Below the pieces are notes generated by a model. The model searched no databases and was not told where the DNA came from. It was given only the letters and a program-made list of their open reading frames with translations. The position numbers and the translations under genes were made by a program. Shown piece after piece: positions 5,730 to 29,151 of a stretch of 36,463 nt of DNA. How positions within the stretch are numbered: position 1 is the first letter of the stretch; each line of letters starts with the position of its first letter. This DNA comes from Bacteroidales bacterium (GTDB lineage: Bacteria > Bacteroidota > Bacteroidia > Bacteroidales > UBA932): positions 1 to 36,463 of the forward strand of contig JAFSSE010000020.1 in assembly GCA_017445755.1 (NCBI GenBank), in the 5' to 3' direction.

Positions 5730-5749
5730 TTCCGTGAACGTGCACGGAA
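5730..5749. promoter_or_regulatory. LacI-family operator, GH28 cluster
   Basis: TTCCGTGAACGTGCACGGAA is a near-perfect palindrome whose arms extend to 5728-5751. It is one of four matching sites in the window (also 12078, 26533 and 29132). It begins 36 bases before the -7 box and so overlaps the expected -33 region, a position suited to repression. Confidence 0.8.
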
Positions 5750-5765
5750 TTATAAATAAAATACT

Positions 5766-5773
5766 TATCTTTG
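5766..5773 (+). promoter_or_regulatory. -7 promoter element, GH28 cluster
   Basis: TATCTTTG matches the Bacteroidota consensus TAnnTTTG and lies 27 bases before the GH28 ATG. It rules out the earlier in-frame ATG at 5771 as the start. Confidence 0.75.
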
Positions 5774-5800
5774 CCCACAGTAACACTGAAACGGGTAAAG

Positions 5801-7348
5801 ATGAAATACATCCTCAATCTTATTTTTGCGGCTGCAACACTGCTTGCAGCTGCCTGCAGTTCAGTTTCTTTCGAAGGGACGGTCGATAATTCCACCCTCG
5901 CCGAACTCTGCTCCGGAGCCCCGTTCCGGATGGAGAGGGTAACTCTTCCCGTCATTCCCGACCGGACGGAGTCTATCGCAGATTACGGCGCTGTGGGAGA
6001 CGGAATAACCCTTAACAGCGAGCCCTTTGCCAAGGCGATTGTCTCCCTTGTGGAAAAGGGAGGTGGTCATCTTCTCGTTCCGGAGGGGATCTGGCTGACC
6101 GGGCCGATCCGCCTCGAAAGCGGGATTGACCTCCATCTTGACGACAATGCGGTAATCCTCTTCTCGTCCGACCGGGACCTCTACCCGATTATCGAAACGG
6201 TCTTTGAGGGGCTCGACTGCCGCCGCTGCGAATCCCCCATCAGCGCCGTAGGGGCGAAGAATGTCTCGATTACTGGAGGCGGTGTGATAGACGGGAACGG
6301 CGGAGACTGGCGGAGTGTCAAGAAATCAAAGATGAATGCCGCCCAGTGGAAGCGGAAAGTCGCCTCCGGGGGCATTCTCAGCGAAGACGGAAGCCGCTGG
6401 TACCCGGACGAGGGCTTCATCGAAGCCGAAAAGAATGCGGACATGAATGTTCCGAGGGGAATCGAGACGGAGGAACAGTGGCAGCGCATAAAGAGTTTCC
6501 TCCGCCCGGTCATGGTCAGCTTCCGCGGCTGCGAGAATGTCTGGCTGGACGGCGTTACTTTCCAGAATTCCCCGTGCTGGAACCTCCACCCACTGCAGTG
6601 CCGGAATGTCGTCATCAGCGGCGTGACCGTGAGGAATCCGGAATATTCCCAGAATGGGGACGGCATCGATATAGAATCCTGCGAGAACACGGTTCTGGTG
6701 AATTCCGCCTTCGACTGCGGGGACGACGGAATCTGCGTCAAATCCGGAAAGGATGAAGATGGCCGCCGGCGTGCGGCCCCCTGCCGGAACCTGATTGTGA
6801 AAAACTGCGTGGTATATCACGGCCATGGCGGCTTTGTGGTCGGCAGCGAGATGTCCGGCGGGGTAGAGAACGTCCAGGTCTCCTCCTGCCGCTTCCTCGG
6901 GACCGACGTAGGCCTTCGTTTCAAGAGCAAAAGGGGCCGCGGAGGCGTTGTGCGCAATATTTTCATAGACCATATAATGATGACCGACATGCAGACCGAA
7001 GCCATCCTCTTCGACCTCCATTATGGCGGAGTTTCCGCTGTCGAGGCGATGGAAAAGGGGGAGACGGCGGAGATTGAGCCGGTGAAGGTCGATGAGACCA
7101 CGCCCGCCTTCCGGGAGATTTATATCAGCGACATAGTCTGCAACGGGGCCGCGAGGGCCATGTACTTCAACGGCATTCCTGAAATGCCCGTTACCGGCGT
7201 AAATATAGAGCGCTGTACCATTACTTCCCGCCGCGGCATCGAAATCTGCTATGCCAGGGACGTCATCCTGAAGGATGTGAACATCTTCCCGGCGGAGGGT
7301 TTCGAGCGGCTGAGTGTAGTTCACAGTGAAAACGTAACCGAAGAGTAA
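5801..7348 (+). CDS. GH28 polygalacturonase, lipoprotein
   Basis: This 515-residue protein (from ATG 5801) is a glycoside hydrolase family 28 enzyme that hydrolyses alpha-1,4-galacturonan. It has a lipoprotein signal (LLAAACS, Cys19). Family motifs appear in order: NGDG at 285-288, DCGDDG at 305-310, GHG at 341-343 and RFK at 373-375. These supply the catalytic aspartates and the substrate-binding His, Arg and Lys. The beta-helix start is seen at IADYGAVGDG (59-68). An upstream ATG at 5771 would fall inside the promoter. It heads a run of four closely packed pectinase genes. Exo versus endo action is not determined. Confidence 0.94.
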   Translation: MKYILNLIFAAATLLAAACSSVSFEGTVDNSTLAELCSGAPFRMERVTLPVIPDRTESIADYGAVGDGITLNSEPFAKAIVSLVEKGGGHLLVPEGIWLTGPIRLESGIDLHLDDNAVILFSSDRDLYPIIETVFEGLDCRRCESPISAVGAKNVSITGGGVIDGNGGDWRSVKKSKMNAAQWKRKVASGGILSEDGSRWYPDEGFIEAEKNADMNVPRGIETEEQWQRIKSFLRPVMVSFRGCENVWLDGVTFQNSPCWNLHPLQCRNVVISGVTVRNPEYSQNGDGIDIESCENTVLVNSAFDCGDDGICVKSGKDEDGRRRAAPCRNLIVKNCVVYHGHGGFVVGSEMSGGVENVQVSSCRFLGTDVGLRFKSKRGRGGVVRNIFIDHIMMTDMQTEAILFDLHYGGVSAVEAMEKGETAEIEPVKVDETTPAFREIYISDIVCNGAARAMYFNGIPEMPVTGVNIERCTITSRRGIEICYARDVILKDVNIFPAEGFERLSVVHSENVTEE

Positions 7349-7349
7349 G

Positions 7350-9017
7350 ATGCGAAAGGGCTTTTTTCTTGCGGCCTTATGCGCCGCCGTCCTCATACTG
7401 AGCTCATCGACGACAATCCGCCTCATGGGCGATTCGACGATGGCCGACAAAGACATCAGGGGCGGAGCTAATCCGGAGCGCGGCTGGGGCATGATGTTCC
7501 CGAATTTCCTCGACGGAGAATTCTCTGTCGTCAATTATGCCCGGAACGGCCGGAGCACGAAGAGTTTCATTGACCTCGGGCTCTGGGACCGCGTCAGGGA
7601 GGATCTCATGGAAGGGGATTGGCTCTTCATCCAGTTCGGCCACAATGACTCCAAGGCGGACGACCCGGCCCGTTATGCTGCTCCTTTCGGCGCCTACCAG
7701 GAGAACCTCCGGCTCTTTGTCCGGACCGCCCTGGAAAAGGGTGCGAAGCCGGTCCTGCTAACCCCCGTTGCCCGCCGCTGGTTCAAGGAAACAGGGCTTG
7801 ACAGGAACTGCCATGGGGATTATCCCGAAGCCATGAAGCAGGTTGCGGCCGAGCTCGGAGTTCCGCTTCTAGACATGACGTCGGTTACCCTCGACTGGCT
7901 CGAGGGGCTCGGAGACGAGGGCTCGAAGCCCTATTACATGATTTCGACAGGCAAGAATGACAATACCCATACCGTGGCCCGCGGGGCGAGAAAACTCGCC
8001 GAGCTGACCTGCGGCGAGATCCGGAAATCCCTTCCGGAACTGGCTGAACATCTTGTCCGTTACGACATAGTCGTCGATCAGAAAGGGTTCGGGGACTATT
8101 TTACCATCCAGGAAGCGATAGACGCGGCGCCTGACTACAGCCATTCTAAAATCACCACCATACTTGTCCGGGAGGGTGTTTATAAGGAAATGGTGACGAT
8201 CCCCCACAATAAATTCCGGCTCCGCATCAGCGGGGAAGGGGCTGAGAAGACCGTCATTACCTATGACAAATACGCTGAGAAACTTTGGCCGGACAGCGAT
8301 TTCAAAATGGGAACCTCAGGCAGCGCGACCATGTATATCCACTCGAGCTATGTGACCCTCGAGGACATTACTGTCGAAAACAGCTCCGGGGAAGGAAAAG
8401 CCATAGGCCAGGCCGTCGCCCTCTTTACCGACGGGGATTTCCTCTACTTCCACCGCTGCCGCTTCATCGGGAACCAGGATACGGTCTATACTTACGGCCG
8501 TTACGGAAAGGACGGGGGAATAAAGCGGAACTACTTCCTCGACTGCTATATAGAAGGGACCACGGACTTTATTTTCGGCCCTTCGATCGCGTATTTCGAA
8601 AATTGCACAATCCACTCGAAGAAGAACAGCTATGTAACCGCCGCTTCGACCCTGAAGGGCCAGAAGTACGGTTATGTATTCAAAAACTGCCGCCTTACCG
8701 CTGCGGAAGGGGTAGATAAGGTTTATCTCGGCCGCCCATGGGGCGCCTATGCAAAGACGGTTTTCATCGGCTGCGAGCTCGGGGCCCATATAGTGAAAGA
8801 GGGCTGGCACGACTGGGAAAAGCCGGGGAAGCCGGACACCAAAAAGAATTCATATTACGCCGAGTACCGGAATTATGGCCCCGGCGCGGCGACAAAGAAG
8901 GAAAGGGTCGGGTGGTCCCGCCAGCTGAGCGGCTCCCAGGCCGCCGAATATACCTTCGAAAAGGTTATGTACCAGAAGGAGGACGGCATCGTCTGGAATC
9001 CTGAAAACAATATGTGA
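7350..9017 (+). CDS. CE12-like acetylesterase fused to CE8 pectin methylesterase
   Basis: This 555-residue protein has two catalytic domains. Residues about 22-232 form an SGNH/GDSL esterase of the rhamnogalacturonan acetylesterase type: GDST (27-30, Ser29), GHND (97-100) and DNTH (204-207). Residues about 240-550 form a CE8 pectin methylesterase beta-helix: GQAV (Gln354), GNQDT (Gln376, Asp377), TDFIFG (Asp406) and LGRPW (Arg462). One polypeptide could therefore remove both acetyl and methyl groups from pectin. A signal peptide is present (1-20). One base separates it from the GH28 stop, and its stop codon overlaps the next gene's start. Confidence 0.93.
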   Translation: MRKGFFLAALCAAVLILSSSTTIRLMGDSTMADKDIRGGANPERGWGMMFPNFLDGEFSVVNYARNGRSTKSFIDLGLWDRVREDLMEGDWLFIQFGHNDSKADDPARYAAPFGAYQENLRLFVRTALEKGAKPVLLTPVARRWFKETGLDRNCHGDYPEAMKQVAAELGVPLLDMTSVTLDWLEGLGDEGSKPYYMISTGKNDNTHTVARGARKLAELTCGEIRKSLPELAEHLVRYDIVVDQKGFGDYFTIQEAIDAAPDYSHSKITTILVREGVYKEMVTIPHNKFRLRISGEGAEKTVITYDKYAEKLWPDSDFKMGTSGSATMYIHSSYVTLEDITVENSSGEGKAIGQAVALFTDGDFLYFHRCRFIGNQDTVYTYGRYGKDGGIKRNYFLDCYIEGTTDFIFGPSIAYFENCTIHSKKNSYVTAASTLKGQKYGYVFKNCRLTAAEGVDKVYLGRPWGAYAKTVFIGCELGAHIVKEGWHDWEKPGKPDTKKNSYYAEYRNYGPGAATKKERVGWSRQLSGSQAAEYTFEKVMYQKEDGIVWNPENNM

Positions 9018-10192
9018 TGAAAAAGGCCGCAATCATACTTCTCCTTACCCTGACCGCCTGTGGGGCCAGGGTTCCCATGTCTTTGAGGATGGTCCGTTCG
9101 GAGATTTCCCGCTTCCCGGAGCCGGCAGAGCTGGACGGGATGGAAGGGAAGTTGAAGTGGAACTATACGACAGGGCTGGAACTGCTCTCGTTCCTCGATG
9201 TCTATGAGGTCTGCGGGGACACGTCCATTCCCGCCTATGTCGACCGCTGGTATGATGCCCTGATCGCAGAAAACGGCTCAGTGGGAGCCAATTACAGGAG
9301 GTCCAATTATGTGCTCGACCATATCTGTCCCGCCAGGACCCTCTTCCCGCTCTACCGTCTTACCGGGAAGGAAAAATACCGCTCCTGCATCGACAGCATC
9401 TATATCCAAATATGCACCCAGCCCCGGACGGAGGCGGGCGCTTTCTGGCATAAGAAGGTTTATCCTTACCAGGTCTGGCTCGACGGGCTCTACATGGAGG
9501 CCCCTTTCTACTCGGAGTACAGCGCCCTCCTGCTTGCCGGGGAGCATGAGAAATATGTGAATTTCGACGACATCGCCGATCAGTTCCGAACCGCATTCTC
9601 AAAGTGCTATGATTATTCCACGGGGCTTCTCCGCCATGCATGGGATGAAACCGGGAGCATGGCCTGGTCGGACCCCTATACCGGGCAGTCCGCCCATTCC
9701 TGGGGCCGCGCAATGGGCTGGTACATGATGGCCCTTGTCGATGTGCTGGATTTCATGCCTGAGGACCATCCTGCCTGGGAAGACCTTATCGGCATCCTTT
9801 CGACCCTTCTGGATACGCTCCAGAAGTTCGCCGACCCCGAAACCGGGATGTGGTACCAGGTTCTGGACTGCCCCGGAAGGGAGGGCAACTATACGGAGGC
9901 GACCTGCTCCGCAATGTTTACATATGTTTATCTGAAGGCCGCCCGGAAAGGGTATGCACCGCAGTATGGGAAGTACGCCAAACGCCTCTACCGCAATCTG
10001 GTGAAGACTTTCATCCGGGAAGAGGCCGACGGCACCATAACCCTTACCCGCTGCTGCGCCGTAGCCGGTCTCGGCGGAAAAGAGAACCGCAGCGGTGACT
10101 ACGAATACTATATCAATGAAAAAATATGCGAAAATGACCCGAAGGGAATAGGTCCTTTCATATGGGCATCGCTTGAATACGAACGCTTATGA
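9017..10192 (+). CDS. GH105 unsaturated galacturonyl/rhamnogalacturonyl hydrolase, lipoprotein
   Basis: This 391-residue protein from ATG 9017 overlaps the preceding TGA. A GTG one codon earlier is less likely. GH105 enzymes release the unsaturated uronic acid left at the non-reducing end by pectate lyases. Family features include KWNYTTGLEL (47-56) and two aspartates at D101 (YVLDH) and D156 (VWLDGLYM). These are 55 residues apart, the same spacing as D88 and D143 in YteR. A lipobox (LTAC, Cys15) suggests membrane anchoring. Its product feeds KduI and KduD encoded downstream. Confidence 0.92.
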   Translation: MKKAAIILLLTLTACGARVPMSLRMVRSEISRFPEPAELDGMEGKLKWNYTTGLELLSFLDVYEVCGDTSIPAYVDRWYDALIAENGSVGANYRRSNYVLDHICPARTLFPLYRLTGKEKYRSCIDSIYIQICTQPRTEAGAFWHKKVYPYQVWLDGLYMEAPFYSEYSALLLAGEHEKYVNFDDIADQFRTAFSKCYDYSTGLLRHAWDETGSMAWSDPYTGQSAHSWGRAMGWYMMALVDVLDFMPEDHPAWEDLIGILSTLLDTLQKFADPETGMWYQVLDCPGREGNYTEATCSAMFTYVYLKAARKGYAPQYGKYAKRLYRNLVKTFIREEADGTITLTRCCAVAGLGGKENRSGDYEYYINEKICENDPKGIGPFIWASLEYERL

Positions 10193-12072
10193 GGATATTG
10201 AATACTTTTGCCGCCGCGTTTTCCGCGGGGCTCTTCCTTATTGCCTGTGATCCGGATGAAAAAGGGGAAGAGGGAACGGAACTCACCGCCCCCGCGGGGG
10301 TAAAATTGGTTGAGCAGACTTCCACTTCGGCCAGTTTTGAATGGGATGCAGTGGAAGGGGCTGAAAAATATGTCTGGAAAGTCCGCGGATCTGAAGGTGA
10401 GCCGCTAAGTGGTACTGTGACCCTGCCAGGAGTGACGGTTACCGGCCTTAGTGCGGAGATAACGTATTCATTCACCGTTTGTTCCGTGGCCGGTACTTCC
10501 ACTTCGACATGGTCGGGGGCGCTGTCCTTTACGCTGAATAAGGGAGAGGGTCCTTCGCCGGCCTCATACTATGCTGAATTCAAGATTCCGTCTTCGGAGG
10601 ACTCCGACGCTCTCGTCCGCGCCTTCCCAGGGGCTGAGGGCGGCGGAATGTATACTACGGGCGGCCGTGGCGGCAAGGTTATCCGCGTGACCACCCTTGA
10701 AGACGACCCCTCCTCTCCGGTTGAGGGAATGTTCCGCTGGGCGGTTGAAACCCAGAGCGGTGCGCGGACCGTCGTTTTTGACGTTGCCGGACGTATCGAC
10801 CTGAAAGGGAAACTCTCAATCTCAAACGGTAACCTTACGATAGCCGGGCAGACTGCCCCCGGAGACGGCATCTGTATCAGCGGTTATCCGATAAATATCA
10901 AGGCGGGTAATATTATTATAAGGTTCCTGAGGTTCCGTCTCGGGGATGAATATGCTACGGACGATTCGTTCGATACAATCTGGGGCAGGTATTACGATGA
11001 TATCATTATCGACCACTGCTCGATGAGCTGGAGTATAGACGAGTGCTGCTCCTTCTATGCGAACAGGAACTTTACCCTGCAGTGGTGCCTTATTGCGGAG
11101 TCGCTGAACAGTTCCGGGAAGCACAGCAAGAAAAATCACGGATATGCCGGTATATGGGGCGGGAAAGACGCTTCGTACCACCATAATCTTCTTGCCCACC
11201 ATAACAACCGGACCCCCCGCTTCGACCACCCTGAAATCTATGATGCCACCAGTCTGGCCACAAGGAGGGGGAACGTCGATTACCGTAACAACGTGAATTT
11301 CAACTGGGGAACGGGAAACGGCTGCTATGGCGGCAACGGAGCATATATAAATATGGTCGGGAATTACTACAAGCCGGGCCCGGCTTCTGTTGACAGGCAT
11401 TATTTCATTGAGGCCGACGGCCACTACAATGCCGGAAGCTCCTCTAACCCCGACTGGCATACATATCAGTACCCGTATTTATATATGAGCGGGAATGTCC
11501 ACACGCTGTACGAGGATATTTCCAAGGATAATTCCAAGGGGGTGTCATGGTCCGATGCTAAAAACGCCTCCAACGGCGATGTGATAAGCAGCAGCGGGCA
11601 TATCCTTTCCGAGGCGCTTGCCATATCGGGGAAGGACAATGCCAGTGCTTATACTACGACGCACGATGCCGCCACCAGCTTCGAAAGGGTCACCGCGTAT
11701 TCCGGATGTTCCATCGTGAGGGACGATGTCGATAAGAGGATTTCCTCTGAAACCGTCTCCGGGGAAGTTACATTCAAGGACGGAGGGAACGGGAGCAAGG
11801 GAGGAATCATCGATTCCCAGACAGTTGTGGGCGGATGGCCGGAGTATAAAGCCACGGCGGAAGAGCTTGCCCGCTGCACGGATACTGACAAGGACGGTAT
11901 GCCGGACTGGTTCGAAGACAGCTTCGGGCTCGATAAAAACAATGCGGAGGATGCTTCGCGGAAGGATATCGACAAGGGAGGAAGGTATGTGAATTTCGAA
12001 ATGTACCTCCATTACCTCGTCCGAAATATCATAGAATCACAGAATTCAGGAGGAGATTACAAGAGATTGTAG
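10189..12072 (+). CDS. PL1-type pectate lyase with FN3 domain, lipoprotein
   Basis: This 627-residue lipoprotein (LIAC, Cys20) overlaps the GH105 gene by four bases. Residues about 34-118 form a fibronectin type III domain. The lyase region starts at AFPGAEGGGMYTTGGRGGKV (145-164), a common opening of Bacteroidota PL1 enzymes. It contains DHCSMSW (275-281) and NRTPRFD (340-346), which holds the likely catalytic Arg and neighbouring Arg. The tail carries DTDKDGMPD (564-572), a calcium-loop type motif typical of these enzymes. It cleaves polygalacturonate by beta-elimination. PL family 1 is the best fit, but the subfamily was not determined. Confidence 0.9.
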   Translation: MRILNTFAAAFSAGLFLIACDPDEKGEEGTELTAPAGVKLVEQTSTSASFEWDAVEGAEKYVWKVRGSEGEPLSGTVTLPGVTVTGLSAEITYSFTVCSVAGTSTSTWSGALSFTLNKGEGPSPASYYAEFKIPSSEDSDALVRAFPGAEGGGMYTTGGRGGKVIRVTTLEDDPSSPVEGMFRWAVETQSGARTVVFDVAGRIDLKGKLSISNGNLTIAGQTAPGDGICISGYPINIKAGNIIIRFLRFRLGDEYATDDSFDTIWGRYYDDIIIDHCSMSWSIDECCSFYANRNFTLQWCLIAESLNSSGKHSKKNHGYAGIWGGKDASYHHNLLAHHNNRTPRFDHPEIYDATSLATRRGNVDYRNNVNFNWGTGNGCYGGNGAYINMVGNYYKPGPASVDRHYFIEADGHYNAGSSSNPDWHTYQYPYLYMSGNVHTLYEDISKDNSKGVSWSDAKNASNGDVISSSGHILSEALAISGKDNASAYTTTHDAATSFERVTAYSGCSIVRDDVDKRISSETVSGEVTFKDGGNGSKGGIIDSQTVVGGWPEYKATAEELARCTDTDKDGMPDWFEDSFGLDKNNAEDASRKDIDKGGRYVNFEMYLHYLVRNIIESQNSGGDYKRL

Positions 12073-12077
12073 ATTAT

Positions 12078-12097
12078 TTTCGTGCCCGTGCACGGAA
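12078..12097. promoter_or_regulatory. LacI-family operator, susC operon
   Basis: TTTCGTGCCCGTGCACGGAA matches the site at 5730 with only a few changes. It starts 36 bases before its -7 box, the same spacing as at 5730. Confidence 0.78.
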
Positions 12098-12170: not shown

Positions 12171-15100
12171 ATGAAAAGTTTAGCAAAAAAACTCATTGCT
12201 GTACTTCTCTGCCTTGGAACCGGACTTTCCCTGTCCGCCCAGACTACCGTTACGGGTATTGTGACGGACGAAAACGGGGAGCCGCTGATTGGAGCAGGTG
12301 TCTTCGTTGAGGGCACTACAATCGGGGCTGTTACCGGACTTGACGGAGACTATGAACTCGTGGTCCCCGCAGATGCGGTGAACCTGGTCTATTCCTTCAT
12401 AGGCCTGGCCGACCAGACGGTAGCTATTGCCGGCCGTACCAGGATAGACGTACAGCTTTCTGCCGACACAACATTCCTCGACGAAGTTGTCGTCATCGGA
12501 TATGCCGCGGTAAAGCGCCGCGACCTCATGGGTTCGGTCAGTTCCGTTGACAGCAAATCCCTGACCGCCGTTCCTGTAACCTCGGTTTCAGAGGCCCTGA
12601 CCGGAAAGATGGCAGGTGTCCAGGTAACTACTACGGAAGGTGATCCTGACGCGGATATCAAGATCCGTGTCCGTGGCAGCGGGTCCATAACCCAGGACAG
12701 CTCACCTCTTTATATCGTGGACGGATTCCCGGTAGAGAGCATTAACGACATTCCTTCTTCCGACATCCAGAGCATCGACATCCTCAAGGACGCCTTCTCG
12801 ACCGCCATTTATGGCAGCCGTGGCGCCAACGGTGTAGTGCTCGTGACGACAAAGTCCGGAGCGGAGGGCAAGGTCAGCGTTACCTACAATGCCTATACCG
12901 GCTTCAAGAAGATGGCGAACAAGGATGCCATCCAGCCGATGAGTTCGTATGACTATGTCCGTACGGTGTATGAGATGGCCATGATGGACGGCAAACTCGA
13001 TACCCAGTATGTCCCCTACTTCGGCGTTTACGACGATATGGACATGTATAAGAATGCTTATACCAACGACTGGGTTGAGCAGGTATTCGGCCGTACCGGC
13101 AGTACCTTCAACCAGAACGTCAGCATCTCCGGTGGGTCCGAAAAGGTAAAGTGGACCGCCAGTTACGCCCATGTCGGCGACAAGGCCATCATGGTCGGGT
13201 CCAACTTCAAGAGGGACAACCTCGCGTTCAAGACCCGTTATGAACCCGTCAAGAAGCTCACCTTCGACTTCAATGCCCGTTACTCCAATACGTCGGTCCG
13301 CGGCGCGGGGGCGAACTCCATGAACGATACCGGGTCTTCATCAAGCAACGGCCGCCTCAAACATGCCGTACAATATACTCCGCTCCCCATTCTCGCCATG
13401 GATTCCGAAAGCGACATGGAAGAGGATTACGGAGACAACGTACCCCCTCTGCAGTCCGTCGCAGACAACGATACCCGCCGTTTCCGCAAGAACTGGACGG
13501 TGAACGGGGCCGTCACCTGGCATATCATCGACAACCTCGACCTGAAGGTTGAGGGCGGCCTTGACGACTGGATCCAGACGGATGACCACTTCTACGGCGT
13601 CTCCACCTATTATTCCAGGGAGAATTCTTCGGTCAAGAATCAGCCGGCCAACCAGCACAAGGATTCCTACCGTAAGAAATACCGCAATACCAATACCTTG
13701 AATTATAATTTCAAGGATCTCATCAAGGACAAGGCCCACAAGCTTGACATTCTGATCGGTCAGGAGTATATCCTTACCAAGGCCAATGTACTTTCGCTCA
13801 ACATCGACGGTTTCCCGGATTTCTATGATGCTGAAACCGCCTGGAACTTCATGAGCTCCGGTACGCCCAACAAGGCCAGCAATTTCTTCGAGGCCGATGA
13901 CAAGCTGCTCTCCTTCTTCGGCCGTGCCAACTATGTGAAGGATGACAAGTATTCCTTCTCCGCAACGCTTCGCGCAGACGGCTCCTCAAGGTTCTCCAAA
14001 GGGCATCAGTGGGGCTTATTCCCCTCCTTTGCGGCCGCATGGACCATCAGCAACGAGGACTTCATGAAGGATGCCACCAAGGTTGACAACCTCAAGCTCC
14101 GTTACTCCTTCGGTACTGCCGGTAACAACAATATCCCGACCGGCGTCACCCAGATGGCCTTCACGTCCTCGAATACCACGTGGGTGTACGGCACCAAGAC
14201 GATGTTCAACACCACTACGGTCGGCGGCAAGTACATTATGCCCAACGAGGATCTGACCTGGGAGACTACCTATTCCCACAATATCGGTCTTGATTTCTCG
14301 TTCCTCCGCAGCCGCGTCAAGGGAAGCGCCGAGGTATACAGCAACCTTACCGACAACCTGCTTATCCAGTTCCCTACGGCCGGATCCGGTTATGAATACC
14401 AGTATCGCAACATGGGCGCTGTCAGGAACAGGGGAGCGGAGTTCTCCCTGGACATAGTCCTTGCCGAAAAGAAAGACTGGGGCATCACCGCCGGGGCAAA
14501 TATCTCCTTCAACAAGAACCGCGTGACCAAGCTCGGCCTTGACAGTATCCAGTCGAGCAGCGGCTGGGGCGGAACATATGTCGCCAACTACGACTATATA
14601 GTACAGGTAGGACAGCCGCTCGGCAATATCTACGGATATATTTGCGACGGCCGCTATGAGGCCTCCGACTTTACCTGGGACGGAGCCCGTTGGGTCCTCA
14701 ACGATGGCGTAGTCGATGCTTCCGGCGTTGTGGGCGGCACCTTCGGTCCCGGTTCCCTCAAGCTGAAGGATATCGGAGTCGCCCTCGATGAGGACGGAAA
14801 TCCGGTCGCGGACAATATCGGAATGATTGACTCCAATGACCTTACCGTCATCGGCAATACCCAGCCCAAGGCGGTCGGCGGTTTCAATATTTCCGCTTTC
14901 TGCAAGGGCTTCGATTTCTCTGCCAACTTCAACTTCGTGCTTGGCAACCAGATTTACAATGCCAACAAGATAGAATTCACGACCAGCAGGTCACAGTATC
15001 GCCGCAATTACCTCTCGAGTTTCGCCCCCGATTCCCGTTGGACCAATATCAACTGGGAAACCGGCGAGCTTATCACCGATCCTGACAAACTTGCCGCCGT

Positions 15101-15416
15101 CAATGCCGGCACCACCCTGTGGTCGCCCAACATGGGCCGCTATGTCCTGACCGACTGGGCCATCGAAGACGGCAGCTTCCTGCGCCTTTCCACCATTACC
15201 ATGGGTTATACCCTGAATCAGGAACTCACCCGTAAATACAAACTGGGCAGTGTCCGTTTCTATGTAACAGGTGGGAATGTATTCCTGCTTACCAAATACA
15301 GCGGATATGATCCCGAGGTGGATACCCGCCGTTCTACCCCTCTGACCCCCGGAGTGGATTATTCCGCATATCCGAAGAGCCGGAGTTATGTTGCAGGCGT
15401 TAACATCACATTCTAA
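12171..15416 (+). CDS. SusC-like TonB-dependent outer-membrane transporter
   Basis: This 1081-residue protein has a signal peptide (to about residue 24) and a carboxypeptidase-like beta-sandwich (TGIVTDENGEPLIGAGVFVE). The segment DEVVVIGYAAVKRRDLMGSV leads into a plug domain ending SRGANGVVLVTTKSG. A long beta-barrel follows, with the C-terminal aromatic SYVAGVNITF. Length is usual for SusC. It would import oligosaccharides with the SusD partner encoded 17 bp downstream. Its own operator and promoter precede it, and the cargo is inferred as pectic oligomers from the neighbours. Confidence 0.94.
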   Translation: MKSLAKKLIAVLLCLGTGLSLSAQTTVTGIVTDENGEPLIGAGVFVEGTTIGAVTGLDGDYELVVPADAVNLVYSFIGLADQTVAIAGRTRIDVQLSADTTFLDEVVVIGYAAVKRRDLMGSVSSVDSKSLTAVPVTSVSEALTGKMAGVQVTTTEGDPDADIKIRVRGSGSITQDSSPLYIVDGFPVESINDIPSSDIQSIDILKDAFSTAIYGSRGANGVVLVTTKSGAEGKVSVTYNAYTGFKKMANKDAIQPMSSYDYVRTVYEMAMMDGKLDTQYVPYFGVYDDMDMYKNAYTNDWVEQVFGRTGSTFNQNVSISGGSEKVKWTASYAHVGDKAIMVGSNFKRDNLAFKTRYEPVKKLTFDFNARYSNTSVRGAGANSMNDTGSSSSNGRLKHAVQYTPLPILAMDSESDMEEDYGDNVPPLQSVADNDTRRFRKNWTVNGAVTWHIIDNLDLKVEGGLDDWIQTDDHFYGVSTYYSRENSSVKNQPANQHKDSYRKKYRNTNTLNYNFKDLIKDKAHKLDILIGQEYILTKANVLSLNIDGFPDFYDAETAWNFMSSGTPNKASNFFEADDKLLSFFGRANYVKDDKYSFSATLRADGSSRFSKGHQWGLFPSFAAAWTISNEDFMKDATKVDNLKLRYSFGTAGNNNIPTGVTQMAFTSSNTTWVYGTKTMFNTTTVGGKYIMPNEDLTWETTYSHNIGLDFSFLRSRVKGSAEVYSNLTDNLLIQFPTAGSGYEYQYRNMGAVRNRGAEFSLDIVLAEKKDWGITAGANISFNKNRVTKLGLDSIQSSSGWGGTYVANYDYIVQVGQPLGNIYGYICDGRYEASDFTWDGARWVLNDGVVDASGVVGGTFGPGSLKLKDIGVALDEDGNPVADNIGMIDSNDLTVIGNTQPKAVGGFNISAFCKGFDFSANFNFVLGNQIYNANKIEFTTSRSQYRRNYLSSFAPDSRWTNINWETGELITDPDKLAAVNAGTTLWSPNMGRYVLTDWAIEDGSFLRLSTITMGYTLNQELTRKYKLGSVRFYVTGGNVFLLTKYSGYDPEVDTRRSTPLTPGVDYSAYPKSRSYVAGVNITF

Positions 15417-22163: not shown

Positions 22164-23641
22164 TGAAATACATCAAGATAAACCCTGCCGACAACGTGGC
22201 CGTTGCCCTTCAGGACCTCTCCAAAGGTGAGGTCGTTGAGGGTGTGACCCTCATTTCGGATGTTCCCCGCGGCCATAAGATAGTCCTTCGGGACCTCAAG
22301 GCAGGCGAGAACGTCATCAAGTACGGCTTCCCGATCGGCCATGTGACCAAGGACGCCCCCAAGGGTACCATGATCAACCACGAGTGCATCAAAACCAATC
22401 TGGAAGGCCTTCTGGACTATAAATATGAACCCGCCCTTGTGGAGATTCCCGAGGCGGCTGTAAAACGGACGTTCAAGGGCTTCCGCCGCTCTGACGGGCA
22501 GGTTGGCATCCGCAACCAGATCTGGGTTATCCCGACCGTCGGCTGCGTCAACGGAATCTGCCAGGAAATCGTGGAACGCTTCAAGGCGGAAATCGCCGGA
22601 AAAGAGGGGAGTGTCGATGCCGTTGTCGCCTTTCCTCACAATTACGGCTGTTCCCAGCTCGGCGGGGACCATGAGAATACCCGGACCGTCCTTGCCGATA
22701 TGGTCCATCATCCCAATGCCGGCGGTGTTCTCGTTGTCTCCCTTGGATGTGAAAACAATCAGCTGGACGCCTTCCGGGAGCTGGTCGGAAGCGTGGATTT
22801 CGCCCGCGTGAAGATGTTCAAGACCCAGGAGGTGGACGACGAAGTTGAATACGGACTGGAGCGCCTTCGGGAAATCTTCTCGGTCTGTTCGAAGGACTGC
22901 CGGGAGGATGTTCCCGTGTCGGAACTCCGTGTCGGGCTCAAGTGCGGCGGTTCCGACGGGCTCTCCGGCATCACGGCGAACCCCCTTCTCGGCGTTTTCT
23001 CCGACTGGATTGTGGCCCAGGACGGCACGACTGTCCTCACCGAAGTCCCGGAGATGTTCGGTGCCGAGACCATCCTCATGAACCGCTGCCAGGACCGGGA
23101 GACCTTCGACAGGACCGTCCATCTTATCAACGACTTCAAGGAATATTTCATGAGGCAGGGAATGCCCGTGTACGAGAATCCTTCTCCCGGAAACAAGGCC
23201 GGCGGTATCTCGACCCTAGAGGAAAAGTCCCTTGGCTGTACCCAGAAATGTGGAAAGAGCATTGTCCGGGGAGTTTTGAAATATGGCGAGCGGCTGAGTG
23301 TCAAGGGTTTGAATTTGCTGTCGGCCCCTGGTAATGATTTGGTTGCCTCTACGGCCCTTGCCGCCAGCGGTTGCCAGATAGTGCTCTTCACTACTGGCCG
23401 CGGAACCCCCTTCGGAAGTTTCGTGCCCACCATGAAGATTTCCACGAATACCCCGTTGTACGAGAAAAAGCCCGGATGGATTGACTTCAATGCCGGCACT
23501 CTGGCCCAGGATGAGCCGATGGAAAAGGTGTCCGAACGCTTTATCGAATTCGTCCTCGCGGCGGCTTCCGGTGCTCCCGTAAGGAACGAGGTTAACGGCT
23601 ACCGCGAAATCGCGATCTTCAAGCAGGGCGTTACGCTATGA
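22163..23641 (+). CDS. uxaA: Altronate dehydratase
   Basis: This 492-residue protein matches UxaA. An N-terminal SAF-type domain (about residues 1-90) is followed by the large altronate/galactarate dehydratase domain. The domain contains DGQVGIRNQIWVIPTVGCVN, FPHNYGCSQLGGDHENT and GLKCGGSDGLSGITANPLLG. It converts D-altronate to 2-keto-3-deoxygluconate. The conserved cysteines fit the iron-dependent mechanism known for the family. Its stop overlaps the start of a small lipoprotein gene. Confidence 0.95.
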   Translation: MKYIKINPADNVAVALQDLSKGEVVEGVTLISDVPRGHKIVLRDLKAGENVIKYGFPIGHVTKDAPKGTMINHECIKTNLEGLLDYKYEPALVEIPEAAVKRTFKGFRRSDGQVGIRNQIWVIPTVGCVNGICQEIVERFKAEIAGKEGSVDAVVAFPHNYGCSQLGGDHENTRTVLADMVHHPNAGGVLVVSLGCENNQLDAFRELVGSVDFARVKMFKTQEVDDEVEYGLERLREIFSVCSKDCREDVPVSELRVGLKCGGSDGLSGITANPLLGVFSDWIVAQDGTTVLTEVPEMFGAETILMNRCQDRETFDRTVHLINDFKEYFMRQGMPVYENPSPGNKAGGISTLEEKSLGCTQKCGKSIVRGVLKYGERLSVKGLNLLSAPGNDLVASTALAASGCQIVLFTTGRGTPFGSFVPTMKISTNTPLYEKKPGWIDFNAGTLAQDEPMEKVSERFIEFVLAAASGAPVRNEVNGYREIAIFKQGVTL

Positions 23642-24000: not shown

Positions 24001-24804
24001 ATGGCAAACCCTTTTTCCCTCGAAGGCAAAAACGCCTGGATTACAGGCGCTTCCTATGGCATCGGATTCAACATCGCCAAGGCGTTTGTTGCGGCCGGTG
24101 TTAAGACAGTTATTTTCAACGATATCAATGAGGCGGCCCTTGAAAGAGGCCTTGCCAACTATTCCGAAGCCGGTATCACCAACGTCAGGGGCTATGTCTG
24201 CGACGTGACCGATGAAGTGGCCGTCAAAGCCCTCGTGGAGAAAATCCATGCCGAGGTCGGACAGATTGACATCCTCGTCAACAATGCCGGCATTATCAAG
24301 CGTATCCCGATGCATGAGATGCAGAGGAAGGAGTTCCAGCAGGTTATTGATGTCGACCTCGTCGCTCCGTACATCGTTTCCTCCGCCGTCCTTCCCGAAA
24401 TGATGGAGCGCCGCGAAGGGAAAATCATCAACATCTGTTCGATGATGTCCGAACTCGGCCGGGAGACGGTTTCCGCCTATGCCGCCGCGAAGGGAGGACT
24501 CAAGATGCTGACCCGGAATATATGCTCCGAGTATGGCCATTACAATATCCAGTGCAACGGAATCGGCCCCGGATACATCGCTACGCCCCAGACCGCGCCC
24601 CTTCGTGAAAGGCAGCCCGACGGCTCCCGCCATCCTTTCGACAGCTTCATCTGCGCCAAGACCCCGGCCGGCCGCTGGCTCGAGCCGTCCGAACTCGGAG
24701 GTCCGGCGGTATTCCTGGCTTCCCATGCCTCTGATGCCGTAAACGGCCATATTCTCTATGTCGATGGAGGTATCCTCGCCTATATTGGAAAACAGCCCGA
24801 ATAG
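24001..24804 (+). CDS. kduD: 2-keto-3-deoxygluconate dehydrogenase (SDR family)
   Basis: This 267-residue short-chain dehydrogenase has the cofactor motif TGASYGIG (15-22), NNAG (94-97) and the catalytic set Ser147, Tyr160 and Lys164 (YAAAK). KduD reduces 2,5-diketo-3-deoxygluconate to 2-keto-3-deoxygluconate in the breakdown of unsaturated galacturonate. The assignment rests on the kduI gene 6 bp downstream. By sequence alone a gluconate 5-dehydrogenase is close. It has its own promoter. Confidence 0.88.
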   Translation: MANPFSLEGKNAWITGASYGIGFNIAKAFVAAGVKTVIFNDINEAALERGLANYSEAGITNVRGYVCDVTDEVAVKALVEKIHAEVGQIDILVNNAGIIKRIPMHEMQRKEFQQVIDVDLVAPYIVSSAVLPEMMERREGKIINICSMMSELGRETVSAYAAAKGGLKMLTRNICSEYGHYNIQCNGIGPGYIATPQTAPLRERQPDGSRHPFDSFICAKTPAGRWLEPSELGGPAVFLASHASDAVNGHILYVDGGILAYIGKQPE

Positions 24805-24810: not shown

Positions 24811-25653
24811 ATGAAAATTAATTGCACAGTTCGCCAGGCATCCTCCAACTTGGATGCCAAGCATTATGATACAGCCCGTCTCCGCAGCGAGTATCTCGTC
24901 CAGAACCTGATGGTTGCCGACGAAATCAATATGGTATATTCCATGTTCGATCGGATTATCGCCGGAGGCGCTGTCCCGGTCCATGAAGAACTCCTTCTCG
25001 AAGCTCCCGAAATCCTCCGCGCGGACTATTTCACCAAGCGCCGTGAGATGGGAATTATCAACGTCGGCGGTCCCGGAGTAGTGAAGGTCGGCGACCGTGA
25101 ATTCGAGATTCCGTTCAAGGAGGCCCTCTATGTCGGCCGCGGAGACCGCCATGTCTCTTTCCGGAGCATAGACCCTGAGCACCCGGCCCATTTCTACTTC
25201 AATTCCGCCCTCGCCCACCGCGAGACCGGGGTGAAACATGTAACGAAGAAGGATGCCGTCGTGATGCACCTAGGATCCCTCGAGGAGAGCAATGAGCGCA
25301 CAATCAACCGTCTCCTTGTCAAGGAAGTCGTTCCCTGCTGCCAGCTCCAGATGGGTATGACTGAACTTGCCCCGGGCAGCACCTGGAATACCATGCCTGC
25401 CCATACTCATGACCGCCGTATGGAGGTTTATTTCTATTTTGAGGTCCCGGAGGATGCGGCCGTCTGCCATTTCATGGGTGAACCGGACGAGACCCGCCAC
25501 CTCTGGATGCACAACGAGGAGGCAGTGATTTCTCCCCAGTGGAGCATCCACTCCGCCTGTGCCACCCGGAATTATACCTTCATCTGGGGTATGTGCGGCG
25601 AGAATGATGATTACAACGACATGGACTGGGTCGCCACGAAGGATCTGAAGTAA
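24811..25653 (+). CDS. kduI: 5-keto-4-deoxyuronate isomerase
   Basis: This 280-residue protein has the normal KduI length. Likely zinc ligands His198, His200, Glu205 (PAHTHDRRMEVYFYF) and His247 (PQWSIHSAC) match E. coli KduI His196, His198, Glu203 and His245 with constant offset. It isomerises 4-deoxy-L-threo-5-hexosulose uronate, the form taken by the unsaturated sugar released by GH105. It is placed between kduD and a DUF4861-like gene, with 1 bp to the latter. Confidence 0.95.
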   Translation: MKINCTVRQASSNLDAKHYDTARLRSEYLVQNLMVADEINMVYSMFDRIIAGGAVPVHEELLLEAPEILRADYFTKRREMGIINVGGPGVVKVGDREFEIPFKEALYVGRGDRHVSFRSIDPEHPAHFYFNSALAHRETGVKHVTKKDAVVMHLGSLEESNERTINRLLVKEVVPCCQLQMGMTELAPGSTWNTMPAHTHDRRMEVYFYFEVPEDAAVCHFMGEPDETRHLWMHNEEAVISPQWSIHSACATRNYTFIWGMCGENDDYNDMDWVATKDLK

Positions 25654-25654: not shown

Positions 25655-26485
25655 ATGAAAAAAACGGTTCTATTTGCCATTCTGGTTCTTTCTCTCGCCG
25701 CATGCGCGCCGAAGGGACCCTCTGTCATGGCCCGTTACGTTCCCGAGCGGGCGGATGATTTCGTATTTGAGAACGACCTCATCGCCGGCCGTTTCTATGG
25801 GGAGGCCCTTGAGGGCAATCCGACCTCGCCCGGGCTCGACATCTGGGTGAAACTCCCCGGGAAACTCGTCGCCGACGACTGGTACGCCCATGCCGTCGAA
25901 GACCCCGGATATTATCACCATAATCACGGTGGCAAGGACTGCTACAAGGTTGCGGTCAGTCTTGGCGGCGGCGCTTCCGTTCCGGTCGTTGACGGGAAAC
26001 TTGCCTATCCTGCGACCAACTACCGTTCCTATGAAATCCTTTCCTCTACCCCGAAACAGGTCGTCTTTGCCCTGCATTATCCGGCATGGACGGTGGATTC
26101 GCTGGTCGTTTCCCTCGACAAGGAGGTGACGGTTCCCGCCGGAAGCCGCTTCTGCCGGGTCAGGGATACTTATTCATTCAACACCGATTCGCTTACCATA
26201 GCCGCCGGAATCCGGCGTCACAAAGTCGCAGAGGAGCAGATTTGGCCCGACCGTTTCGCAATCTGGGAAGAGGCATCCGACCAGAGCGCTGAGCCGGAGG
26301 ACGGTATGATCGGGGTGGCCCTTGTGATGGAAGGCGGCGAAATAGGTAAACTCGGGAAGCACATGGTTTCCTGCCGGAGAATCTGCTCCGGGGAGAGCGT
26401 GGAATATGCCATTGCCTCGTGCTGGAGCAAGGCCGGCGTCAGGGACGCCGCAGAATGGTTCCGTCTTGTAGAGTCATTTAAGTAA
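25655..26485 (+). CDS. DUF4861-like lipoprotein
   Basis: This 276-residue lipoprotein has a lipobox at LAAC (Cys17). It shows features I associate with DUF4861: FVFENDLIAGRFYGEALEG, GLDIWVKLPGK, YHHNHGGKDCYKV and a late WPDRFAIWEE. Several His and Trp residues could contact sugar, but no reaction is established from the sequence. The gene follows kduI by 1 bp and ends at a terminator. A link to unsaturated uronate use is inferred from that context. DUF4861 proteins I recall are often longer, so this may be a compact form. Confidence 0.7.
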   Translation: MKKTVLFAILVLSLAACAPKGPSVMARYVPERADDFVFENDLIAGRFYGEALEGNPTSPGLDIWVKLPGKLVADDWYAHAVEDPGYYHHNHGGKDCYKVAVSLGGGASVPVVDGKLAYPATNYRSYEILSSTPKQVVFALHYPAWTVDSLVVSLDKEVTVPAGSRFCRVRDTYSFNTDSLTIAAGIRRHKVAEEQIWPDRFAIWEEASDQSAEPEDGMIGVALVMEGGEIGKLGKHMVSCRRICSGESVEYAIASCWSKAGVRDAAEWFRLVESFK

Positions 26486-26488: not shown

Positions 26489-26527
26489 CAACCTACCCAT
26501 TTACGGGCAGGTTGGCAGCTTTTTTTT
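26489..26527 (+). terminator. Terminator after the DUF4861-like gene
   Basis: CAACCT (26489-26494) and CCC (26496-26498) pair with GGG (26505-26507) and AGGTTG (26509-26514), with one mismatched pair between them. A run of eight T follows (26520-26527). Confidence 0.88.
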
Positions 26528-26532: not shown

Positions 26533-26552
26533 TTTCGTGCACGTGCACGGAA
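26533..26552. promoter_or_regulatory. LacI-family operator, uxaB
   Basis: TTTCGTGCACGTGCACGGAA contains the perfect palindrome CGTGCACGTGCACG, the most symmetric of the four sites. It starts 28 bases before the -7 box, 7-8 bases closer than the other three. Confidence 0.82.
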
Positions 26553-26560: not shown

Positions 26561-26568
26561 TATCTTTG
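26561..26568 (+). promoter_or_regulatory. -7 promoter element, uxaB
   Basis: TATCTTTG fits TAnnTTTG and lies 32 bases before the uxaB ATG, directly after the operator. Confidence 0.75.
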
Positions 26569-26600: not shown

Positions 26601-28040
26601 ATGGAAAAATTAAACAGGACTACCGCCCCGCAGGCGAAACAGTACACCGAAAAAGTCATCCAGTTCGGAGAAGGAAACTTCCTCCGTGCCTTCATTGAGT
26701 GGATAATCTGGAAAACCAACCAGAAAACGGACTTCAACGCTTCTGTCGTTGTCGTACAGCCGATTGAGAAAGGGATGGTTGACTCTCTGAACGCCCAGGA
26801 CGGGCTGTATCATCTCAACCTCCAGGGACTCGACGGCGGAAAGCCGGTGGACAGCGTCGACCTTATCGACGTGATTTCCCGCGGCATAAATCCCTACCGT
26901 GATTTCGAAGACTACCTTCGGCTTGCGGAGCAGCCGGAGATCCGTTTTGTCATCTCCAACACCACCGAGGCCGGAATCGCCTTTGATCCCGCCTGCCATT
27001 TTGAGGACCGTCCCGCCTCCTCCTATCCGGGGAAACTCGTCCAGCTGCTGTACCATCGTTACGAGTACTTCAAGGGCGACCGTAAGAAGGGACTCATCAT
27101 CTTCCCCTGCGAGCTGATTTTCGAAAACGGCAAGCATCTCAAGGAGTGTATCCGCCAGTATATCGACCTCTGGGGGCTCGGAGAGGACTTCCGCTCATGG
27201 TTCGAGGAGGGTTGCGGCGTTTACAGCACCCTTGTCGACCGTATCGTTCCGGGATATCCCCGTGACAACGCCGCCGCACTTTGCGAGAGGGCCGGCTATG
27301 AGGACAACCTCCTCGACAAGGCCGAAATCTTCCATCTCTGGGTCATCGAAGCCCCGAAGGAGATTGCCGCTGAATTCCCCGCCGACAAGGCCGGGCTCAA
27401 TGTCCTCTTCGTCCCCAGCGAGGCCCCGTACCATGAACGCAAGGTGACCCTCCTCAACGGTCCCCACACCGTCCTTTCGCCGGTCGGCTACCTCAGCGGG
27501 CTGGATACCGTAAAGGAATGCTGCGAGGATCCGGAGATCGGGCGTTATGTGCGTAAGGTGATGTACGAGGAACTCCTCCCGACCCTGAATCTTCCTAAGG
27601 AGGAGCTCGAGAAGTTCGCCGGCGACGTGCTGGAGCGCTTTGTCAACCCCTTTGTGAAGCATTTCGTCACGAGCATCATGCTCAACTCCTTCCCGAAATT
27701 CAAGACCCGTGACCTCCCCGGACTGAAGACCTATCTCGAGCGCAAGGGCGAACTCCCGAAGGGCATCGTCCTCGGCCTCGCCGGTATCTGCACCTATTAT
27801 AAGGGCGGAAAGAGGGGAGAGAATGAAATCGTAGTCAATGACGACGAGCAGATAAAGACCCTTCTCACCGACCTCTGGAAGACGGGGGATGTGAGGAAAG
27901 TCGCTGAGGGCGTTCTCGGCGCAGCGTTCATCTGGGACGAGGACCTCAACGCCGTTCCCGGCCTGACGGACCTCCTTGCCGCGGATCTTGGAAAAATCAG
28001 TTCCGAGGGCATGCGTGCCGCCGTCCGTTCGATTCTGTAG
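26601..28040 (+). CDS. uxaB: Tagaturonate reductase (altronate oxidoreductase)
   Basis: This 479-residue protein is of the long-chain polyol/mannitol dehydrogenase family and has the usual UxaB length. The nucleotide-binding start is IQFGEGNFLRAF (20-31), and VISNTTEAG follows. The catalytic pattern K-x4-N-x2-H is present as Lys281, Asn286 and His289 (KVTLLNGPH). UxaB reduces D-tagaturonate to D-altronate, linking UxaC and UxaA. The gene is a single unit with its own operator, and it is convergent with the LacI-type regulator, 11 bp away. Confidence 0.94.
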   Translation: MEKLNRTTAPQAKQYTEKVIQFGEGNFLRAFIEWIIWKTNQKTDFNASVVVVQPIEKGMVDSLNAQDGLYHLNLQGLDGGKPVDSVDLIDVISRGINPYRDFEDYLRLAEQPEIRFVISNTTEAGIAFDPACHFEDRPASSYPGKLVQLLYHRYEYFKGDRKKGLIIFPCELIFENGKHLKECIRQYIDLWGLGEDFRSWFEEGCGVYSTLVDRIVPGYPRDNAAALCERAGYEDNLLDKAEIFHLWVIEAPKEIAAEFPADKAGLNVLFVPSEAPYHERKVTLLNGPHTVLSPVGYLSGLDTVKECCEDPEIGRYVRKVMYEELLPTLNLPKEELEKFAGDVLERFVNPFVKHFVTSIMLNSFPKFKTRDLPGLKTYLERKGELPKGIVLGLAGICTYYKGGKRGENEIVVNDDEQIKTLLTDLWKTGDVRKVAEGVLGAAFIWDEDLNAVPGLTDLLAADLGKISSEGMRAAVRSIL

Positions 28041-28051
28041 CCGCAGGACGA

Positions 28052-29098
28052 CTAGTAATACTCGCAGTTGAAGCGGGTCAGCACGTCCATGTGCATGTAA
28101 TTGTCCTTTTTCGGGGGATCTTTTTTCAGGACGATGACGTCGGAGAGGGCCTTGATGGCGTTTCGGACCTGTTCATCGGGGTGCTGGGTGATCAGCATCG
28201 TTACTGAGCCGCGCTTCAGGGCGGCTACATTGGCGGGGATATTGTCGAAGCCGATGACCCTGAAGCCCTTTTTGCCGCGGGACTCGAGCCAGGAGGCGAC
28301 GAGGTGGATGCGGGAATTGAACATTACGATGCTGGTGATGTCCGGGTGAGCGGCGAAGAACTCGTCAAGGGTTTTCCGGATGCTTTCCGGTTCAGTCGGA
28401 TCAATGAATACGTTGGGCAGGGTGCTCCCCGGGCAGTGCTCGGCCATGTAATCCATGAAACCGGCGCGGCGGTTTACGGTTGGATCCGAAATCCTTCCCC
28501 GGTCCCTGAGTATCCGGACGATGGCGACGTCCCGTCCGGGCCGGTCTTCGGTCATCAGATAGGCGCAGAGGTAGCCGCTCTGGTACATCGGCATTCCATA
28601 GTAGGCGAGGTAGCCGTCGTCCTCGATCCTGGAGTCGACGAAGATGTATGGTATTCCCTTTTCGCGGAGGCGTCCTGTCAGTTGGAGGGTTGCGTCGAGG
28701 TACATCGGGGCGATTACCACCCCGTCCGGAGCGGCTTCAACCACCCGGTCACAGGCGGCGCGGAAGGCCTCGAGGTCATACTGGTCATACCCGACGCGGG
28801 TGACCCTGACCCCGAAGGGCTTTGTGTCCTCTTCTCCGCGCAGAATTCCACCTTCGGAGAGTTCCCAGAACTCACCTTCCTTCCATTCGGGGAGGAGGAC
28901 CATAATCTCGTGGGCACGGTTCGAAGCGAGCATGGAGGCGAAGATGTTTGGCTCATAGCCGAGCTCGCGGATCACTTTCATAACCTTTTCGTAGCTTTTT
29001 TTAGCCACTTCCCCCCTGTTGTGGATTACTCGGTCCACGGTTCCCTTAGACACCCCGGACAAACGGGCGACGTCTTTTATCGTGATTTTATCAGCCAT
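28052..29098 (-). CDS. LacI-family transcriptional regulator of the uronate/pectin genes
   Basis: This 348-residue protein has an N-terminal LacI helix-turn-helix (TIKDVARLSGVSKGTVDRVI, residues 5-24), a hinge (NIFASMLASNRAH), and a periplasmic-binding-protein-like effector domain (about 65-340). It lies between uxaB and kdgK and is divergent from kdgK. The palindromic operator between them recurs at three other promoters, which makes this protein the best candidate for binding all four sites. The inducer is unknown; a uronate or ketodeoxy intermediate is a guess from pathway context. It is likely autoregulated through the site at 29132. Confidence 0.92.
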   Translation of the reverse strand: MADKITIKDVARLSGVSKGTVDRVIHNRGEVAKKSYEKVMKVIRELGYEPNIFASMLASNRAHEIMVLLPEWKEGEFWELSEGGILRGEEDTKPFGVRVTRVGYDQYDLEAFRAACDRVVEAAPDGVVIAPMYLDATLQLTGRLREKGIPYIFVDSRIEDDGYLAYYGMPMYQSGYLCAYLMTEDRPGRDVAIVRILRDRGRISDPTVNRRAGFMDYMAEHCPGSTLPNVFIDPTEPESIRKTLDEFFAAHPDITSIVMFNSRIHLVASWLESRGKKGFRVIGFDNIPANVAALKRGSVTMLITQHPDEQVRNAIKALSDVIVLKKDPPKKDNYMHMDVLTRFNCEYY

Positions 29099-29115
29099 TC
29101 AATCGTAATTTTTTG

Positions 29116-29123
29116 TAAAGATA
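29116..29123 (-). promoter_or_regulatory. Possible -7 promoter element of the regulator
   Basis: On the minus strand TATCTTTA is one base from TAnnTTTG and sits 17 bases upstream of the regulator ATG. The operator at 29132 lies just upstream of it. Confidence 0.45.
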
Positions 29124-29131
29124 GGAAAAAA

Positions 29132-29151
29132 ATCCGTGTACGTGCACGAAT
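29132..29151. promoter_or_regulatory. LacI-family operator between regulator and kdgK
   Basis: ATCCGTGTACGTGCACGAAT matches the shared core CGTGnACGTGCACG. It starts 35 bases before the kdgK -7 box and could act on both divergent promoters. Confidence 0.8.

Follow-up and report, generated by a model that had tools for sequence, protein, structure and literature searches.

The stretch of DNA analysed here, called the window below, comprises 36,463 nucleotides of a Bacteroidales bacterium genome (GCA_017445755.1, contig JAFSSE010000020.1, positions 1 to 36,463). It carries a cluster of pectin-degradation genes, a gene for a LacI-family regulator, and four copies of a 20-bp palindrome. Based on the sequence and its conservation, we propose a local regulon in which one LacI-family repressor would control pectin degradation, catabolism and, in this genome, uptake. 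The probability of this reading is estimated at about 0.86. Four near-identical palindromes had been described in an earlier note at 5730, 12078, 26533 and 29132, and all of them were found at those positions. The operators, the regulator gene and the genes of the cluster are as follows.

5730..5749, no strand: operator 1, TTCCGTGAACGTGCACGGAA, before the secreted pectinase operon; -7 box 5766-5773; matrix score 33.4
12078..12097, no strand: operator 2, TTTCGTGCCCGTGCACGGAA, before susC; -7 box 12114-12121; matrix score 33.1
26533..26552, no strand: operator 3, TTTCGTGCACGTGCACGGAA, a perfect 14-bp palindrome before uxaB; -7 box 26561-26568; matrix score 33.8
29132..29151, no strand: operator 4, ATCCGTGTACGTGCACGAAT, common to kdgK (-7 box 29167-29174, plus strand) and lacI (minus strand); matrix score 23.6, in the training set
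28052..29098, minus: LacI-family regulator, 348 aa, helix-turn-helix (HTH) at residues 6-51 and Peripla_BP_4 sugar-binding domain (Pfam)
5801..7348, plus: GH28 polygalacturonase-like lipoprotein (Pfam PF00295), first gene of the pectinase operon; start chosen by inspection (listed open reading frame (ORF) start TTG 5771)
7350..9017, plus: GDSL esterase and pectinesterase (Pfam)
9014..10192, plus: GH88/105-type unsaturated uronyl hydrolase (Pfam PF07470)
10189..12072, plus: probable pectate lyase (NCBIfam PelZ, E-value 2.7e-28, 99 bits, far under the cut-off of 840) with an fn3 domain (Pfam)
12171..15416, plus: susC (TIGR04056, 803.7 bits)
15434..17284, plus: susD (Pfam)
17298..20687, plus: DUF4957/DUF5123/fn3 protein (Pfam), putatively lyase-like
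20748..22163, plus: uxaC, uronate isomerase (Pfam PF02614, 650 bits)
22163..23641, plus: uxaA, altronate dehydratase (Pfam)
24001..24804, plus: kduD-like short-chain dehydrogenase/reductase (Pfam), with its own promoter at 23941-23972
24811..25653, plus: kduI (Pfam PF04962)
25655..26485, plus: DUF4861 protein (Pfam)
26489..26527, plus: intrinsic-terminator-like hairpin and T run, read from the sequence and predicted to part the upstream genes from uxaB
26601..28040, plus: uxaB, tagaturonate reductase (NCBIfam NF002969, 640 bits)
29196..30236, plus: kdgK-like PfkB kinase (Pfam, NCBIfam)
30241..30909, plus: eda, 2-keto-3-deoxy-6-phosphogluconate (KDPG)/2-keto-4-hydroxyglutarate (KHG) aldolase (NF005499, 375 bits, above cut-off)
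30920..32371, plus: major facilitator superfamily transporter (profile match), probably hexuronate-type (exuT-like)

Together, the cluster genes make up a pectin route that leads from the polymer to the KDPG aldolase. The distances from the start of each site to the start of its TAnnTTTG box, a -7 box of the Bacteroidota type, given earlier as 36, 36, 28 and 35 nt, proved correct, with boxes beginning at 5766, 12114, 26561 and 29167. We add that operator 4 faces the promoter of lacI as well. The lacI start (29098, minus) and the kdgK start (29196, plus) form a divergent pair around this operator, and a minus-strand -7-like box, TATCTTTA, lies at 29123-29116, 28 nt from the operator start, which is the same spacing as at uxaB. 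The four operators are thus placed at five promoters. The flanks beyond the four 20-mers have little in common, and duplication of a single promoter was therefore ruled out as the source of the sites. In the case of the first pectinase ORF, a start at ATG 5801, followed by a lipoprotein-like leader, is more likely than one at TTG 5771; the latter codon falls within the -7 box (5766-5773).

The window sites have the CG centre that was claimed to be typical of LacI operators. A section of PMC4052901 gives the family rule as a palindrome of even length centred on CG, located in most cases 30-140 bp ahead of the start codon. The window sites agree with it in all these respects, as the gap between the 22-mer and the start codon is 33 for lacI, 43 for kdgK, 47 for uxaB and 72 for susC, and 50 for GH28 if its start is 5801. 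Because sites precede uxaB, the kdgK/lacI pair and the run from susC to uxaA in the window, and recur in related loci, the set has the make-up of a LacI-family uronate regulon, with operators before uronate catabolic genes and before the gene of the regulator itself.

The gene at 28052-29098, said to be of LacI type and to border one site, encodes a protein with PF00356 (7.1e-18) and PF13407 (1.9e-33) domains in the Pfam scan, and the site at 29132 lies between lacI and kdgK. An N-terminal HTH joined to a periplasmic-binding-type core places the protein among LacI-family transcription factors. Its AlphaFold model has a mean predicted local distance difference test score of 89.1. The nearest solved fold is 3gbv, a putative LacI regulator of Bacteroides fragilis (E-value 4.2e-29), and the model also matches PurR, LacI and CcpA.

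The specificity of the sites was examined with shuffled sequences and with scans of the organism's own assembly (2,178,474 bases, 82.94% complete). The 12 fixed letters of CGTGNNCGTGCACG, a pattern picked after the sites were known, gave five strand matches in the window (four sites, one of them on both strands), as compared with one in total over 200 Markov shuffles. A window scan allowing three mismatches was not significant (13 matches against a mean of 8.83, equalled or exceeded in 16 of 100 shuffles); therefore, the signal resides in the near-exact matches. With at most one mismatch, CGTGNNCGTGCACG was found in the assembly at the four window sites and at one place inside a paralogous lacI coding sequence (C5:7968), whereas the reversed-pattern control gave 3 and 1. 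The wider palindrome YCGTKNNCGNNMACGR occurred at six places, four of them within the window, against one per strand for the control. Many unrelated hits across the genome had been named beforehand as grounds for abandoning the idea of a common operator, and the pattern scans with CGTGNNCGTGCACG and YCGTKNNCGNNMACGR were nearly confined to the cluster. A chance origin of the sites was rejected on the basis of the near-exact-match shuffles and these assembly scans. Three further places were rejected as operators: C5:7968, which lies within the paralogous lacI coding region; C5:30547, which is covered by reading frames on both strands and has differing arms; and the three-mismatch match at 28084, which is inside lacI and not promoter-like.

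A symmetric matrix of 22 columns was built from 37 regulator-upstream sites, one of them from the window (operator 4), after exclusion of one off-register match (L094). The three window sites that had not been used in training scored 33.1-33.8, while the next best place in the window reached 4.5. At a threshold of at least 14 bits, 20 matches were found in 409,364 bases, a set consisting of 20 neighbouring regions, the window and part of C5 and including the training sites and the loci that supplied them. Five Markov shuffles gave 0, 0, 0, 2 and 0 matches.

Conservation was assessed in a sample of 101 genomes of the genus Candidatus Cryptobacteroides. Of these, 30 encode a regulator at or above about 50% identity, the window and one partial copy counted. 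With the identity limit set at about 49%, there were 31 regulator copies, 30 of them with an operator upstream. In 29 cases the site had at most two mismatches and lay in the 350 bp before the gene, and in the remaining one (L106) a looser palindrome scan revealed TTTCCGTGTTCGGTAACGGAAA. The strict motif, present in 31 of the 101 genomes, occurred in 25 of the 30 with an orthologue and in 6 of the 71 without one (Fisher p 2e-13; counted by hand). In a second, partly overlapping set of named records, 41 loci reached 49% identity, and 36 of these had a site scoring at least 17 within 350 bp before lacI. As for the other five, the site of L124 (27.8) precedes an exuT-lacI run, and the remaining four form part of an Arg18 subgroup whose palindromes are altered.

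The targets of the operator recur as well. Among 96 unique sites scoring at least 17, the adjoining genes were lacI (70), GH28 (40), kdgK (27), uxaC (9), susC (5), uxaB (4), exuT (3), kduD (2) and PME/GDSL (1), with eight sites unlabelled; one site may serve two genes, and the sites that lie between lacI and a divergent GH28 or kdgK partly train the matrix. Despite a differing gene order, GH28, uxaB, uxaC, kdgK, kduD and exuT bear operators in related loci. The uxaB operator is present in the window and in three other genomes (genes 80-85% identical), with a spacing of 27-28 nt in four of four. The distance from site to box was 33-37 nt in 22 of 27 cases for kdgK and 34-37 nt in 23 of 40 for GH28. 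The kduD gene bears an operator in two related loci (L065 and L077), and in L070 (G091), where the regulator is 39% identical, a site and the listed uxuA start overlap.

Across about 110 homologues, changes at residue 18 of the recognition helix (K, R, A, E, V and others) go along with changes at operator positions 8-9, labelled in our own numbering. In the model, this residue is the first of the second helix (18-25). We counted half-sites only in palindromes with intact GT/AC arms, taking the best per row and collapsing identical upstream sequences. The Lys18 regulators had 53 A, 37 C, 7 T and 5 G at position 9 (102 half-sites, from 51 of 59 rows), and the Arg18 regulators had G there in 10 of 16 half-sites and A in the rest. 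The difference gave a Fisher p of 2e-7, the half-sites not being independent. With Glu18, T was present at position 8 in 14 of 14. In a quick tree, limited to proteins longer than 250 aa, Arg18 appeared in three separate parts: the C5 paralogue, the L141-L153 group and the L015 group. Such co-variation between helix and operator is what would be expected of a protein that reads this palindrome.

The paralogous LacI of contig C5 might read the sites in place of the window regulator, or the two proteins might do so in shared or crossed control. In favour of this, the paralogue is 46% identical and lies next to another SusCD locus, one that includes a GH88-like gene. Its own palindrome TTTGTGCGCGCGCACAAA differs from the window-type CGTGnACGTGCACG sites by T in place of the outer C and by G at position 9, it carries Arg18, not Lys18, and the window-type site tracks the C37-type orthologue across genomes. 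We consider such control quite improbable. It is likewise unlikely that the palindromes belong to an unrelated regulator or to a chance repeat family, and here the odds are very low. CG-centred LacI-type palindromes are indeed generic, the first pattern was chosen after the sites had been seen, and one Arg18 regulator copy has no site. Against this, the sites are placed at promoters within dissimilar flanks, and they combine conservation upstream of the regulator (30 of 31) with co-variation with its helix.

The regulator might also bind these sites and activate transcription, or do both, like some LacI-type proteins. Nothing was found in its favour here beyond the behaviour of other members of the family, such as Cra/FruR, which activates some promoters. 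The geometry favours repression, because the operators start 28-36 nt before the -7 box at five promoters and overlap the -33 element or the space between the -33 and -7 elements, where a bound dimer should block the polymerase. Activation is therefore regarded as improbable.

Several observations weigh against a single LacI repressor for the whole pathway. The lowest score of the four operators (23.6) is that of operator 4, the one next to the regulator's own gene. The genes kduD-kduI-DUF4861 have a consensus promoter of their own (TTTG-N20-TAnnTTTG, 23941-23972), and no operator was found in the kduD promoter gap of the window, where the best matrix score was -11. These genes might be reached by read-through from the susC transcript. 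Among the unique sites, no -7 box was detected for GH28 in 11 of 40 cases and for lacI in 28 of 70. Of the five sites labelled susC, the window's alone is followed by a box at the distance expected. The remaining four precede SusC genes that are just 29-37% identical, so that control of the window-type SusC is not directly replicated. The uptake (susC) branch is the least replicated part of the regulon and is direct in the window only. In L154, the GH28 operator is followed on one strand by the pectinase genes and then by a SusC gene of 74% identity, which may be another route to the same control. The strict pattern also occurs in the 6 of 71 genomes that have no orthologue, and in 3 of the 25 genomes with both (G074, G083, G124) the strict match is weak and unlabelled (17.0-18.4) and not at a regulon gene (L090, L076, L089). 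A second Arg18 copy of 49% identity (G083:C159; L207, 215-1249) showed no operator in about 300 bp upstream; the G083 genome also holds a Lys18 orthologue with an operator. Moreover, the half-site counts are not phylogenetically independent, and further targets could be missing from the 83%-complete genome. The earlier statement that one repressor controls degradation, uptake and catabolism together was upheld in large part by the recurring targets, the conservation at 30 of 31 copies and the helix co-variation, and it falls short at kduD-kduI-DUF4861, which has no operator here.

With these points weighed, one repressor very probably switches most of the pectin pathway through one repeated DNA site, as far as can be judged from sequence comparison. 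Without inducer, the regulator dimer (28052-29098) would occupy the palindrome TTTCCGTGnACGTGCACGGAAA at four places. The bound dimer would cover the -33 side of five promoters and block the polymerase, by repression rather than activation. The predicted transcription units are the pectinase operon, susC-susD-DUF4957-uxaC-uxaA, uxaB, kdgK-eda-exuT, and lacI itself. A cytoplasmic intermediate of galacturonate breakdown would release the repressor. Our first choice of inducer is 2-keto-3-deoxygluconate (KDG), because the products of the saturated (uxaCBA) and unsaturated (kduID) branches converge only at this compound; tagaturonate or galacturonate would come next. The autoregulated, divergent placement of lacI would make a simple feedback loop.

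No hybrid two-component system (HTCS) or sigma/anti-sigma regulator was found in the 23 window ORFs scanned with Pfam, and the locus does not have the make-up of a polysaccharide utilization locus controlled by HTCS or extracytoplasmic function (ECF) sigma factors. These 23 were taken from 58 listed ORFs of at least 120 aa, most of the others overlapping them, and for the ORF at 32513-36463 the scan used NCBIfam alone. In the whole assembly, Reg_prop was found in a single 964-aa frame, on C12; ECF sigma factors were not searched genome-wide.

Two other loci of the genome contain related regulators. On C5 (L036, 6292-17767), the paralogous lacI is divergent from the GH88-like gene, with a SusCD pair downstream, and its palindrome lies near 7560, upstream of the lacI gene. 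This is probably a second LacI-controlled glycan locus. An MmeI-type restriction-modification protein is encoded beside it (L036, 2516-5395). On C34 (L120, 29-7245), a third LacI of the group (34% identity) adjoins TonB receptor, SusD, BACON and Exo_endo_phos genes, and no palindrome was visible directly upstream of it. We suggest tentatively, as a possibility with less than even odds, that in Cryptobacteroides UxaR-like LacI proteins have multiplied to become the main local control of glycan loci, replacing HTCS, with private operators acquired through changes of residue 18. In favour of this are the three LacI proteins of the group on C37, C5 and C34 of this genome, each close to a SusCD pair, the single Reg_prop frame, and the occurrence of Arg18 with a matching operator change in three parts of the tree. 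Against it are the C34 copy and the G083 Arg18 copy, both without an operator directly upstream; the HTCS numbers, moreover, were examined in this one genome only.

Outside the cluster, in the region 3690-4104, an S10 ribosomal operon (L4, L2, L22 and S3 confirmed by Pfam) breaks off after rpsC. The segment directly behind rpsC (3740-4080) is repetitive, with 15 matches in the genome if its own place is counted, and no L16 (rplP) was found in the assembly, which is 83% complete. Because of the repeat and the missing L16, the contig may be misjoined after rpsC, to the left of the pectin cluster. At the other end, a large ORF with a YD repeat (TIGR01643) occupies 32513-36463 and runs off the contig.

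In pectinolytic enterobacteria, Dickeya among them, one repressor, KdgR, joins extracellular pectinases to KDG catabolism. It works like the proposed regulator, but it belongs to the IclR family, has a different operator and is not a relative. In Bacteroides, LacI-family uronate regulators, namely UxaR (BT0824), KdgR (BT0487), UxuR (BT1434) and UxmR (BT3613), have been predicted by comparative genomics, according to sections of PMC3878776 and PMC4052901. The window regulator shares with them the family and the uronate genes as targets, and differs in that its proposed regulon includes secreted pectinases and a SusCD pair. Bacteroides relatives of the regulator (37-39% identity) sit in a uxaC-lacI-uxaB cluster, the setting that we would expect of a UxaR-type regulator. 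Among the genome's five LacI proteins, the best match of those tested was the window protein (for L186, 239 bits against 216 or less), these relatives having been fetched with an alignment led by the window protein; in the tree, they fall outside the window clade of 85 rows. In B. thetaiotaomicron, ManR (GntR family) and AraR (NrtR family) are each described, in a part of PMC3878776, as spanning extracellular enzymes, SusCD and cytoplasmic catabolism, the same architecture as proposed here, with other protein families and other sugars.

No account of such a regulon in Cryptobacteroides was found among the listed papers of open-licence PubMed Central. For experimental work on LacI uronate regulators of Bacteroides, the listed papers that seemed pertinent to Bacteroides were PMC3878776, PMC4052901, PMC7366714 and PMC6989115. 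LacI uronate regulators predicted in Bacteroides and the ManR and AraR regulons that span SusCD and cytoplasmic genes were already known. What is new is a uronate LacI regulator that would reach pectinases in the genus and SusCD in this genome, an operator shared by lacI and kdgK, and a paralogue with its own operator. The regulon is a sound, though rather ordinary, addition to a known type of circuit. It offers a specific regulon, open to testing, in a rumen and gut genus that is known here chiefly through metagenome-assembled genomes. In it, a LacI regulator of the monosaccharide type would extend to secreted pectinases and, in this genome, to SusCD uptake. The orthologues and paralogues with their matched operators are a ready-made collection for studying the LacI recognition code, with residue 18 set against position 9.

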